Assembly: GCA_903858935.1 (NCBI GenBank)
Contig: CAIOKO010000105.1
Location: 1-32,191, forward strand
DNA: 32,191 nucleotides
Direction: 5' to 3'
Origin: an uncultured Schlesneria sp.
GTDB taxonomy: Bacteria; Planctomycetota; Planctomycetia; Planctomycetales; Planctomycetaceae
Position numbers and translations under genes: made by a program. Below the pieces are notes generated by a model that did not search any database, had not been told where the DNA came from, and saw only the letters and a program-made list of their open reading frames with translations. Within the stretch, counting starts at the first letter, position 1, and the number at the start of each line of letters is the position of its first letter. Shown piece after piece: positions 8,067 through 17,447 of the stretch.

Positions 8067-9071
8067 TCAATGTGACTTCGTTTTCAACCAATTCTTGAGA
8101 TCTTCGAGCGCGTGAAAATCCAAAAGTGCCTCACCGAGGTTCTGACTTTGCTCCAGTGATAACTTACGAATTTCCTGTTCAATTTCTTCGGACATGGGAC
8201 CGCAAAGATGCGTTAGTTGCCGCAGCAGCAGAGTCGCACTCCCCTGTTCTCGCCCCTTGATAACCCCTTCCTCACGACCTTTCTCGAGACCTTTCTCGAG
8301 ACCTTCCTCAAGACCTTCTTCCTTCGCCAATCGCTCAACTGATGTGACGTAAGGCATATGCATCTCCTCTTCGTAGGCAACTAAATCGGCCTTGAATCGA
8401 CGATCAAGAACTGACGGCAGGCGCATCATCCAATCAATCAGACGAAATAACTCCCGAATTCTATCCGAAGAATACCCCAGCGTGTAGAGGTTTCTTACTA
8501 ACTGCGTTTTGGCATTGAAACGAGCTTCCGGATTACCTGCCGTCTTCAGAGCGGCAATCTGGGCTCGCGACACCTGAACCACAAGCGAAGTCTTACCGAC
8601 CCAATCATTCGACAAACGGTCCAGAATTTTGCAAATCGGAAACCGACACAGACTTTCAAAGCCACCCATTTTGAAATGGTGTTCGGTCGGACGCCAATCC
8701 GGACTTAGATCCGCCAGGATGACCAGCGTCAAAACATCTCGCCGAAACATCCACTTCAAGCCCGAATTGTATTGATCGATCCGAAATTCGAAATCTGCTT
8801 CATACGAGGTCTGAATCTCAAGATGGCATAAAATCCATTGGTCACGCCCGTCGAGCAAACGAACTTTGAAGAGCAAATCAACCTGACGATTCCGATGTCC
8901 CGACTGCCCGATGATCTGGCTGATTTCTTTGTCGAGCCATTCGGGTTCATAATTCCAATCGATAAGCTTTACGAAATCGGGAAAGCAGTCCTCAAGCGAT
9001 TCCATCAGATTTGAGCGAAGCAACTCCTTCCACGCACCATCGTAGTCGCTGTCCTGCCGTTCGTCCTCCAT
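8067..9071 (-). CDS. Rpn-like PD-(D/E)XK nuclease/transposase-family protein
   Basis: This 334-aa protein resembles the Rpn/COG5464 group of PD-(D/E)XK proteins, often annotated as putative transposases and linked to RecA-independent recombination. The likely active-site residues are D65 (QVDLLFKV) followed by E85 and Q87 (CHLEIQTS). Near the C-terminus is a charged coiled stretch with repeated E-E-G-L-E-K-G units, then a region like DUF4351, both common in this family. The frame is open to a TTG at 9086, but the ATG at 9071 is preferred; no strong ribosome binding site helps decide. Such genes occur in many copies in planctomycete and cyanobacterial genomes. No terminal inverted repeats are seen next to it, so it is treated as a standalone gene. 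Confidence 0.75.
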   Translation of the reverse strand: MEDERQDSDYDGAWKELLRSNLMESLEDCFPDFVKLIDWNYEPEWLDKEISQIIGQSGHRNRQVDLLFKVRLLDGRDQWILCHLEIQTSYEADFEFRIDQYNSGLKWMFRRDVLTLVILADLSPDWRPTEHHFKMGGFESLCRFPICKILDRLSNDWVGKTSLVVQVSRAQIAALKTAGNPEARFNAKTQLVRNLYTLGYSSDRIRELFRLIDWMMRLPSVLDRRFKADLVAYEEEMHMPYVTSVERLAKEEGLEEGLEKGLEKGREEGVIKGREQGSATLLLRQLTHLCGPMSEEIEQEIRKLSLEQSQNLGEALLDFHALEDLKNWLKTKSH

Positions 9072-9154
9072 CACGTCGGTCCCCAATACACGTCAGAAAT
9101 TTCCCGACTTTTCCATTGGCGATTGAATGGCGGCAAAAAACACGACCCAAGCAG

Positions 9155-15627: not shown

Positions 15628-15655
15628 TTTTTCCCAGCGCTTGTCGAGACCATAA

Positions 15656-15719
15656 TTCGGCGCCGAAATACGTGATCTCAGCGCCCAGTCAACGGGAAAG
15701 GCATTTCGGCGCGCGCCGA
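15656..15719. promoter_or_regulatory. Two related GC palindromes upstream of the sigma-54 activator gene
   Basis: TTCGGCGCCGAA (15656-15667) is a perfect 12-bp palindrome, and TCGGCGCGCGCCGA (15706-15719) a perfect 14-bp palindrome. They share the half-site TCGGCG, with centres 51 bp apart (about five helical turns). They lie 29-92 bp upstream of the activator ATG. They could be operator sites for autoregulation, but which protein binds is not known. Confidence 0.45.
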
Positions 15720-15720
15720 C

Positions 15721-15735
15721 TTGTCAAAGTGACAA
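15721..15735. promoter_or_regulatory. Candidate upstream activator site 1
   Basis: TTGTCAAAGTGACAA is a perfect inverted repeat with 6-bp arms and a 3-nt centre. Its centre is about 112 bp upstream of the predicted start of the sigma-54 promoter at 15814-15829. This lies in the usual -80 to -150 range for enhancer-binding proteins with Fis-type HTH domains. The nearest such protein is encoded divergently next door. Binding is inferred. Confidence 0.5.
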
Positions 15736-15748
15736 ATGTGATTATCCC

Positions 15749-15777
15749 CTTAAGACCATTGAATTTCAATGGTTAAG
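15749..15777. promoter_or_regulatory. Candidate upstream activator site 2
   Basis: CCATTGA-ATT-TCAATGG, extended by CTTAA and TTAAG on the outside with a 2-nt bulge, forms a long inverted repeat with arms of about 12 bp. Its centre lies about 77 bp upstream of the predicted sigma-54 start and 35 bp from site 1. Like site 1 it has a 3-nt centre, but the half-site sequence differs, so the two may bind different proteins. Confidence 0.45.
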
Positions 15778-15813
15778 CTGGACACCAATTATTATTAAGC
15801 GCCGATTAAACTA

Positions 15814-15829
15814 TGGCACGAAGAATGCA
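15814..15829 (+). promoter_or_regulatory. Sigma-54 (-24/-12) promoter
   Basis: TGGCACG-AAGA-ATGCA matches the consensus TGGCACG-N4-TTGCW at every defined position but one. The invariant GG (15815-15816) and GC (15827-15828) are spaced exactly 12 bp apart. It reads rightward, away from the sigma-54 activator gene, with a predicted start near 15840. No convincing protein gene follows on this strand; the next annotated gene runs the other way. Confidence 0.65.
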
Positions 15830-15839
15830 TAAGTTCGGC

Positions 15840-16022
15840 AACAGTAGTCGAGCGATCGATTACGATGATCTTTCCCAGCCCGAACCCCCAGCGAACGACC
15901 AATGCCTTTGATTGTGAACTGCATGGCTCCTTCAAGCAGTCTCTGACCCACTCTGCTACCCGGTTCCCACTCGCCAGTACACCCAACACAGTCAGATGCG
16001 GCAGTTCTCTGGGGGTTCTTTT
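15840..16022 (+). ncRNA. Candidate structured small RNA, sigma-54 dependent
   Basis: From the predicted start at 15840 the transcript can close on itself. GAACCCCCAGCGAAC (15882-15896) pairs with GTTCTCTGGGGGTTC (16004-16018), 15 bp with one mismatch, across 107 nt, followed directly by TTTT. Two inner helices nest in this: 15919-15924 with 15996-16001, and 15943-15947 with 15991-15995, giving an elongated rod. Transcription may stop at 16022 or run on to the strong terminator at 16117-16144 (about 305 nt). A 60-codon frame (15865-16047) overlaps but has no ribosome binding site and odd composition. Alternatives are a 6S-like RNA, an mRNA leader for a very small peptide, or an unrelated inverted repeat. 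No known RNA family was recognised. Confidence 0.5.
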
Positions 16023-16116
16023 AAATCATAAGTTTGCTGCTCGATGAATCTCATGAACAGCAAAAACGAAACGGCATCCAGTCAGACGTGATTCAACGGA
16101 TGGAGCAGGATGCGGA

Positions 16117-16144
16117 AGCCCCCACGGATGGGGGCTATTTTTTT
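16117..16144 (+). terminator. Strong intrinsic terminator
   Basis: AGCCCCC-ACGGAT-GGGGGCT is a perfect 7-bp stem with a 6-nt loop, followed by A and seven T residues. It works in the plus direction. The only plus-strand transcript it can serve in this region is the one from the sigma-54 promoter at 15814-15829, which supports a real transcription unit there. The gene to its right runs on the opposite strand. Confidence 0.85.
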
Positions 16145-16157
16145 CTTTGGGCAGCCA

Positions 16158-16189
16158 GGATTCTGGACTCAGGGGATTCTGGACTCAGG
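16158..16189. repeat. Perfect tandem duplication of 16 bp
   Basis: GGATTCTGGACTCAGG occurs twice back to back (16158-16173 and 16174-16189), just beyond the 3' end of the beta-propeller gene and after the terminator. It looks like a recent slippage product; no function is apparent. Confidence 0.85.
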
Positions 16190-16203
16190 GGAAAAATGAG
16201 ACC

Positions 16204-17274
16204 TCAGTCCGCCTTGGCCAAGGTGACCATGCTTCCGTCAACGAGCGAAAACGAACCGACGGAGCCATCGAGGGATCCAAAATAGACAGCATCGCTGGCC
16301 GATGAAAACGCGATCCCGCCTGTACTGTTTTTCGAAACTTGGCGCAGAAGTCGTCCGCTGGCACGACTTACCACGCGAATCGGACATGCAAATCCACTTG
16401 CCGCAACCCAACGACCATCCGGCGAGATTGCTACGCTCGTCAGCCAATCCTGATCATTCTGATCCTCAAATTGGACCGTCCAGACCGGATCCCCCGATGG
16501 CAATTCATAAAGTGCGATAGTTCGATTAGTCGCGATAACGACACACGACCCATCCTGAGAAAAAATGGGGTCTGCTCTTGGGTATCCGGGCCCCTGAATC
16601 GTCTGAACGATAACACCAGTTCTCGCATCACAAAGATGTAACGTCCCCCGAGTCGTTGAAATCAGCATCCGACTGCCTTCAAAGTTCAACGCGATGCGAT
16701 CGACCACCTCAACGAACGAATAATCGGTTTCTACGATTTCGTCGGTCGACAAATCCCATCGGCGAACCATGATTCCATCAACAAGTCGAATTGCCACCTG
16801 CCCATCCAAAGATACCGCAAGCTGAACCGATGATTCCGCCGCCAGAAACTCAGCCCTCAACAATTCGTTTCTTCGAAGGAGCAACAGTTCCCGGTCCTCG
16901 ATCGAAAGTAAACAAGTTTCCCCATCCTGACTGACGCGGACTGCCTGCACGGGTCGACCATTCAATCCGAAGAACTTTTGAATTCGACCATGCTCCAAAT
17001 CAAAAGCGACGACCTCCGAAACCCCTCGGCGAGCGAGGATTTTTCGACCATCGGAAATCACGGATAGACTTACAATCGGGCCACATGCCGACTCATTCGA
17101 ATCCGACTCGTGATTCGGTGAGAGAATGATTCGAATCCCCAGCCATACAATCGAAGCAACCAGCCCCAGCAAAACAACCTCTGCAATGGAAGCAATGCCG
17201 CGACGACGATCTCGATTTGCGATTCGATTGCGGCCTCTGTTTTTGACCGACTGGAATTGCGCAACTCGCTTCAT
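16204..17274 (-). CDS. Membrane-anchored WD40/beta-propeller-like protein
   Basis: This 356-aa protein has a basic N-terminus, one membrane segment (about 28-50, IASIAEVVLLGLVASIVWLG), then a domain of repeated beta-strand blades. Typical blade signatures are VSLSVISDGRKILAR, RVSQDGETCLLS, LDGQVAIRLVDG, FEGSRMLIST, FSQDGSCVVIAT, ISPDGRWVAAS and FSSASDAVYFGS. The arginine-rich side before the membrane segment suggests that the propeller faces outward. The frame is open to a GTG at 17400, but the ATG at 17274 is preferred because GGAG lies 7 nt upstream. It stands alone, head-to-head with the gntR module, and its partner is unknown. A promoter with a palindromic spacer lies upstream at 17448-17476. 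Confidence 0.75.
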   Translation of the reverse strand: MKRVAQFQSVKNRGRNRIANRDRRRGIASIAEVVLLGLVASIVWLGIRIILSPNHESDSNESACGPIVSLSVISDGRKILARRGVSEVVAFDLEHGRIQKFFGLNGRPVQAVRVSQDGETCLLSIEDRELLLLRRNELLRAEFLAAESSVQLAVSLDGQVAIRLVDGIMVRRWDLSTDEIVETDYSFVEVVDRIALNFEGSRMLISTTRGTLHLCDARTGVIVQTIQGPGYPRADPIFSQDGSCVVIATNRTIALYELPSGDPVWTVQFEDQNDQDWLTSVAISPDGRWVAASGFACPIRVVSRASGRLLRQVSKNSTGGIAFSSASDAVYFGSLDGSVGSFSLVDGSMVTLAKAD

Positions 17275-17447
17275 CTTTCGTCTCCACAACAGGGCCGTCA
17301 CCTGGTCGTCATCGCACAAGCGGACCTGAATCGCGATCGCTTCAGGCGAACGTATTGACCCCTCACGACTTGAACTCAAAAAAACCTGAATCAGGGGCAC
17401 AAGACGCTACGCCAATCAACGTGCGAGACAACATAGACACGCCGTCT

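Follow-up and report, generated by a model that had tools for sequence, protein, structure and literature searches.

The divergent upstream region of a gene for a membrane-bound σ54 activator very probably specifies a structured small RNA, which that activator would switch on through σ54 and which probably acts in trans and without Hfq. The analysis concerns a 32,191-nucleotide stretch of DNA from an uncultured Schlesneria sp. (contig CAIOKO010000105.1; the window). In the mechanism that we propose, a one-component membrane sensor-activator would bind GCGCCGA sites that are repeated upstream, mostly at a distance of about 100-240 bp. The bound protein would open the σ54 promoter, from which a structured, non-coding transcript about 185 nt long would be made. 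In Schlesneria, read-through to a second terminator may extend this RNA to about 305 nt. Comparison of related sequences establishes the predicted promoter, the sites, the structure of the RNA and its linkage to the activator.

Features of the activator-RNA locus, with positions in the window
Feature	Position	Strand	Basis
Membrane-bound σ54 activator, 1010 aa	12595..15627	-	Pfam, AlphaFold model, relatives of sensor part
Probable upstream activator site, overlapping half-sites TCGGCGCCGA	15657..15666	.	Genus alignment
Probable upstream activator site, palindrome TCGGCGCGCGCCGA, about -110	15706..15719	.	Genome pattern searches
Half-site GCGCCGA directly upstream of -24 box	15799..15805	.	Kept in 13/14 aligned genus members
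Predicted σ54 promoter TGGCACGAAGAATGCA	15814..15829	+	Sequence match, pattern kept in relatives
Predicted small RNA	15840..16022	+	5' end from promoter geometry, 3' end at T-run; covariance model match, fold
Unpaired conserved leader CCCAGCC	15874..15880	+	Genus alignment, seed alignment
Closing stem P1, followed by TTTT	15882-15891 / 16009-16018 (arms)	+	14/14 P1 pairs vary on both sides over 64 RNAs
Apical hairpin P3, conserved loop segment CUGACCCACU	15935..15957	+	Alignments, covariation
Second ACCCA of window RNA, inside conserved block CGCCAGTACACCCA	15981..15985	+	Genus alignment
Genus-level 3' extension, second terminator at end (hairpin 16117-16136, loop CACGGATG)	16023..16144	+	Genus alignment

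The activator frame matches the Pfam families PF00158 (Sigma54_activat, 8.5e-72), PF25601 (AAA_lid_14) and PF02954 (HTH_8), and its domains, an AAA+ σ54 interaction domain and a Fis-type HTH, identify it as a σ54-dependent enhancer-binding protein. From the N- to the C-terminus it is laid out as a transmembrane helix, a strand-rich domain, a multi-helix (transmembrane) block, a GAF domain, the AAA+ domain and the HTH. The GAF domain gives a weak Pfam match and is also matched from fold libraries with the AlphaFold model (mean pLDDT 70.6, built from 10 sequences); the libraries assigned no other part of the sensor. A PDZ-like part of the sensor was a visual impression without Pfam support and is not retained. 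No receiver domain is found among the Pfam matches, and the NCBIfam LuxO model scores 303.5 bits against the activator, where its cut-off is 800. Relatives of the sensor part occur in 92 of 119 genomes (its own counted) and activator relatives in 70 of 73 Planctomycetaceae genomes; upstream regions were compared for 69 of these 70 Planctomycetaceae loci (G067 omitted) and for 21 of 22 loci from other families (G078 omitted). The window's genome, which is 99.96% complete, contains a σ54 gene and 10 genes of the CsrA family and gives no match to Hfq (PF17209), a search that finds a match in 5 of 14 control genomes. Elsewhere in the window, adjacent genes for tRNA-Ala and tRNA-Ile are found close to the end of the contig (351-500, minus strand), an arrangement typical of rRNA operons, and the frame at 8067-9086 (minus strand) encodes a DUF4351 protein weakly similar to an Rpn-family nuclease model.

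The near-consensus -24/-12 promoter reported in a sequence-only reading of this DNA was borne out. Its sequence, TGGCAC-N6-TGCA, is directed away from the activator gene and is the sole perfect match in the window, in which matches with up to two mismatches occur at chance level (27 compared with 29.3 expected). GG and GC lie 10 nt apart in a TGGCAC-N5-TTGCA context, as is expected of a σ54 promoter. By the same reading, the boxes should be conserved where the activator is kept, and mostly they are: YGGYRY-N6-YGCD precedes the leader by at most 170 nt in 56 of 63 loci with an RNA, compared with 0.71 expected from shuffles. Among the seven loci that miss the pattern, L013, L018, L019 and L084 retain GG-N10-GC, GT replaces GC in L117, and no promoter was seen in L061 and L093. 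Taken singly, promoter scores are often no better than those of shuffled sequence (35 of 100 shuffles are as good at L036 and 78 of 100 at L093, compared with 1 of 100 in the window), and hence the weight rests on recurrence across loci. The conserved leader starts at most 3 nt ahead of the predicted start site and, in the shortest loci, right at it.

Upstream of the promoter, the heptamer GCGCCGA or its complement TCGGCGC recurs in every locus in which promoter and stem were both located, with 2-10 copies in each of these 58 loci and a mean of 5.02 per 320 bp, compared with 0.035 in shuffles. We regard these repeats as probable binding sites of the activator, a candidate role assigned from sequence comparison. 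In the most distal site listed in the table, one GCGCCGA half-site is invariant in all 14 aligned genus members and the overlapping palindrome is present in 8 of them. Two inverted repeats had been noted earlier, at about -112 and -77. The first corresponds to the conserved GCGCCGA-type palindrome, whereas the genus alignment shows no conservation of the second, an AT-rich repeat at 15755-15773, which was rejected as an element. The gapless palindrome TCGGCGCGCGCCGA occurs at one place in the 7.93-Mb genome, and once in each of 9 of the 15 genus genomes (the window's and eight others), always beside the RNA; in the other six the pattern is absent (G009, G012) or present solely in spaced forms elsewhere, and G003 has one additional spaced form. 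For the reversed control pattern, the count is likewise one in the window's genome, and 1-6 per genus genome. Because the control is equally rare, the uniqueness of the palindrome is weak evidence, and a regulon with a single target is suggestive only.

The predicted RNA takes the shape of a long rod, made of the closing stem P1, a variable helix P2 and the capped hairpin P3. The segment from 15840 to 16026 folds at -61.8 kcal/mol (z -4.71), with none of 200 shuffles as good, and across 47 RNAs the median fold z is -5.2, calculated against mononucleotide shuffles, which are a weaker control. As described in the sequence-only reading, the segment of about 180 nt is closed by a 15-bp stem with one mismatch (15882-15896 / 16004-16018). 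The T-run at 16019-16022 directly follows this stem, indicating that the core of the RNA ends there, and P1 with its T-run probably doubles as a built-in terminator. Within the genus (14 aligned members), the promoter, several GCGCCGA/TCGGCGC sites and the blocks CCCAGCCCGA, GACCCACTCTGCT and CGCCAGTACACCCA are kept while much of the intervening DNA is not; other genera have the same architecture in different letters. RNAalifold on plain MAFFT alignments recovered almost no structure for other genera. After these alignments had given little, a P1 and P3 structure set by hand on 19 RNAs, none from the window's genus, was used as the seed of a covariance model. This model matches the window RNA at 15872-16027 (36.2 bits, E 1.1e-9). 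P2 is a strong duplex in all 19 seed RNAs and is not part of the model.

Testing the stems for compensatory changes in relatives, as had been proposed, revealed extensive covariation. In an alignment of 64 rows, all 22 modelled pairs vary on both sides, and the covariation score of 0.480 compares with 0.214 in shuffles, none of 500 being as high; sliding the partners by one column lowers the score to 0.159-0.165. Pairing is possible in 83.6% of cells compared with 67.5% in shuffles, and the outer pairs of P3 hold in 61% of cells. Since the 64-row alignment was fitted to the model, it leans towards the model. We also compared own with swapped arms in 47 RNAs, a test that is free of any alignment. 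Own duplexes were more stable than swapped ones in P2 (-22.9 compared with -13.0 kcal/mol) and P3 (-11.0 compared with -6.2 kcal/mol), and the inner part of P1 formed 6.66 pairs with its own partner and 4.82 with swapped ones. The own partner ranked in the top 5% for P1 in 21, for P2 in 35 and for P3 in 24 of the 47 RNAs. The covarying stems, together with the recurrent promoter boxes, support the earlier proposal of a σ54-dependent small RNA divergent from a membrane activator, as far as comparison of sequences can do so.

A folded RNA of about 150 nt is predicted beside the activator at 63 of the 69 Planctomycetaceae loci (E at most 0.0011), 44 of them outside the seed. Of the remaining six, L038 and L078 end with the contig before the RNA and L069 shows just its first 24 nt; L090, L118 and L081 lack it beside the activator, the last belonging to G034, which carries the RNA elsewhere. 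A genome-wide search with the model detected the RNA in 90 of 120 Planctomycetaceae genomes, once in 84 of these; the second match in the other six is a tandem copy in G046 and short or weak in the rest. Outside the seed, E falls below 1e-26 in two genomes. In a sample of the class, 43 of 198 genomes match, 39 of which are Planctomycetaceae, and the four matches outside the family are all weak (G210, G108, G092 and G268). The match in G210 has no activator alongside and was judged to be due to chance, and that in G108 covers 40 nt at a place other than its activator. Among activator loci from named organisms, 61 of 69 match the model, including two of three from Gimesia, although these records overlap the genome set and are not independent of it. 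A predicted structured RNA adjacent to the sensor is thus kept by most Planctomycetaceae.

Three further arrangements were observed. At L067 of G046, two tandem copies of the RNA (288-421 and 423-577) stand behind one promoter match. In G034, an RNA (L213, 1615-1773, minus strand) with a promoter match and three sites lies beside a gene that reads as Fur-like from its ORF. Finally, RNA loci of other genera (for example L033, L074 and L076) frequently have T(A)TGCGCTGA just after the T-run.

What the RNA might do is suggested by the motif ACCCA, which averages 1.87 copies per RNA over 47 RNAs, compared with 0.20 in their shuffles; 17 of these RNAs have a single copy, 21 have two, seven have three and two have four. 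The mean unpaired probability of the motif is 0.85, compared with 0.38 for all bases. Across the family, the unpaired motif would lie in the leader, in the P3 loop or in the 3' strand; the window RNA has two copies, and its leader reads UCCCAGCC. Such exposed motifs suggest either pairing with mRNA or titration of a protein. If the reading is correct, an RNA in a genome without a recognizable Hfq would have to act in some other way. Most likely, then, the RNA would be transcribed under the control of the adjoining activator and would act in trans, the C-rich motifs pairing with UGGGU of mRNAs or an RNA-binding protein being titrated, in either case without Hfq.

A different function has to be considered for the longer Schlesneria form. 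The terminator noted earlier at 16117-16144 is real as far as the hairpin at 16117-16136 and its T tail are concerned, but the core of the RNA ends sooner, at the T-run of P1. The intervening 3' extension varies in form among the 14 genus members aligned, and visual inspection of the compared loci from other genera showed no counterpart. Between 16100 and 16144 it carries the GGA-bearing GCAGGATGC and the terminator loop CACGGATG, which we take to resemble the hcnA site bound by RsmE, a protein of the CsrA/RsmE type. Conceivably, the GGA in CAGGATGC and that in the loop bind CsrA, so that the long form sequesters this protein. Both GGA are kept in aligned genus members amid a changing neighbourhood, the genome has its 10 CsrA-family genes, and the perfect hairpin pattern occurs in the genome solely at this locus (13 more places at two mismatches, compared with two for the reversed control). 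On the other hand, RNAs that sequester CsrA (CsrB/RsmZ type) display many GGA motifs in hairpin loops and the extension has just two; no conserved GGA was noticed by eye in the seed alignment. Confinement of the element to one genus makes CsrA binding unlikely as the ancestral function. The unique hairpin and the abundance of CsrA genes lead us to keep it as a side reading, itself rather unlikely. Just downstream of the second terminator, at 16158-16189, GGATTCTGGACTCAGG is duplicated in tandem without a mismatch.

An RNA that acts back on the activator beside it or on its own promoter, and has no remote targets, would also be consistent with the linkage seen at 63 of 69 loci and with the location of the sites between both genes. 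In G034, however, the RNA and its sites are kept away from the gene of the activator relative, and the region upstream of that gene is devoid of sites; this assembly has 5% contamination. We consider feedback improbable and continue to favour an RNA acting in trans.

The position of the RNA is occupied differently in other families. There, 20 of 21 activator loci have an α/β-hydrolase frame at the place of the RNA, reading away from the activator, and the two frames tested both match Pfam Abhydrolase_1; the hydrolase motif is present in none of the 69 Planctomycetaceae loci. The other-family loci share the site motif (mean 2.71 per 1400 bp compared with 0.37 in shuffles; at least two copies in 13 of 21, none in three). 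Their promoter candidates are mostly no better than shuffles when taken singly, at most 5 of 100 shuffles being as good in just three of 21, which makes a promoter there likely without demonstrating it. The exception is G108 (L109/L216), a genome of another family with an RNA beside the activator (L216, 3378-3533); the closing stem is different yet still pairs, and the model finds this RNA weakly (8.9 bits, E 0.33; E 0.026 in a smaller search). When one hydrolase was searched against 37 Planctomycetaceae genomes, 24 gave no match at 1e-10 and the best among the other 13 was 8.5e-18. The hydrolase beside the activator scored from 2e-47 to 2.8e-82 in ten other-family genomes, but 2e-16 in an eleventh, G091; given so low a score for a copy in its true place, a diverged hydrolase elsewhere in Planctomycetaceae is possible.

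This distribution leads us to infer that a conserved sensor exchanged an enzyme for an RNA as its output, this being the presumed direction. A fuller version can be put forward tentatively, as somewhat short of an even chance. The activator and its DNA sites, probably with the σ54 promoter, would have stayed in place while a structured RNA took over the position of the hydrolase, both on the line to Planctomycetaceae and in a single genome from another family. This RNA would expose ACCCA, usually repeated, and act without Hfq, perhaps, as the planctomycete equivalent of CrcZ, by titrating an RNA-binding protein that has yet to be described. The sequence-only reading contains neither the recurrence of GCGCCGA sites as such nor the exchange of hydrolase and RNA nor the spread through the family.

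The hydrolase loci, several of which have a leader of about 100-200 nt between a promoter candidate and the frame, also raise the question of whether the RNA is a cis-acting leader or attenuator in the 5' UTR of a downstream gene. This is very unlikely, given that the next gene in the window (16204-17280, minus strand) is convergent, that the hydrolase motif is missing from all the family loci and that the RNA closes with its own stem and T-run. Least credible of all is a σ54-driven mRNA for a small protein with incidental structure: the 60-aa ORF at 15865-16047, with a similar frame in two of 14 other genus members, is not conserved (of 15 genus members, three have the frame, two have no ORF of at least 20 aa and the rest have other short ORFs; of 42 RNAs from other genera, 25 have no ORF of at least 20 aa and 17 have one of 21-53 aa), the RNA covaries strongly, and the earlier statement that no protein gene accounts for the promoter stands.

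The search of Rfam that had been called for was carried out, and neither the window RNA nor 20 loci, the window's own region among them, matched Rfam 15 at gathering scores. A permissive search gave weak matches, the best to Phe_leader (E 0.36) over the second terminator. No description of such an RNA in Planctomycetes was found among the best-ranked papers of a literature search, and within that literature neither the one-protein membrane sensor nor the exchange of enzyme and RNA has an earlier description. A table of candidate RNAs lists 'Rhodopirellula-1' for Proteobacteria and Planctomycetes, with marks that read as a likely cis element (PMC2864571). If our reading is correct, this regulatory RNA family lacks a match in Rfam 15 and has a membrane sensor of its own, and the best-ranked papers include no study of such an RNA in the phylum.

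Several known systems invite comparison. 6S RNA is a long rod with an open central bubble; the RNA described here is rod-like, but does not match Rfam at gathering scores. The activator-hydrolase pair of other families has a related sensor-activator and the same site motif, and differs in that its output is a protein frame. If the exchange of enzyme for RNA is true, it would illustrate clearly how, in nature, a pathway with a conserved sensor can switch its output from protein to RNA. CrcZ carries repeated short unpaired motifs and titrates Hfq/Crc through A-rich CA motifs. With CrcZ and CbrB, the present locus has in common a small RNA, a multi-site promoter, a σ54 activator and such repeated motifs, whereas the motif here is ACCCA and the fold is a rod. 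According to PMC6296734, the CrcZ/CrcY promoter of Pseudomonas and Azotobacter has several activator sites under the σ54 activator CbrB.

Qrr RNAs depend on Hfq. The Qrr/LuxO system of Vibrionaceae, to which the locus had been likened, shares with it a σ54 promoter, upstream activator sites and a small RNA opposite the activator gene. According to PMC10162802, 20 of 21 representative taxa that have a LuxO homologue carry a putative Qrr opposite luxO, and phosphorylation activates LuxO, which is a response regulator. Here, by contrast, sensor and activator are combined in one membrane protein in which a receiver domain was not found, the RNA has no Rfam match and Hfq was not found in the genome. 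The comparison is thus apt as an analogy of wiring, while the RNA itself is not a Qrr. The wiring, in which a σ54 activator governs a small RNA, is of a known kind, that of LuxO with Qrr and of CbrB with CrcZ.
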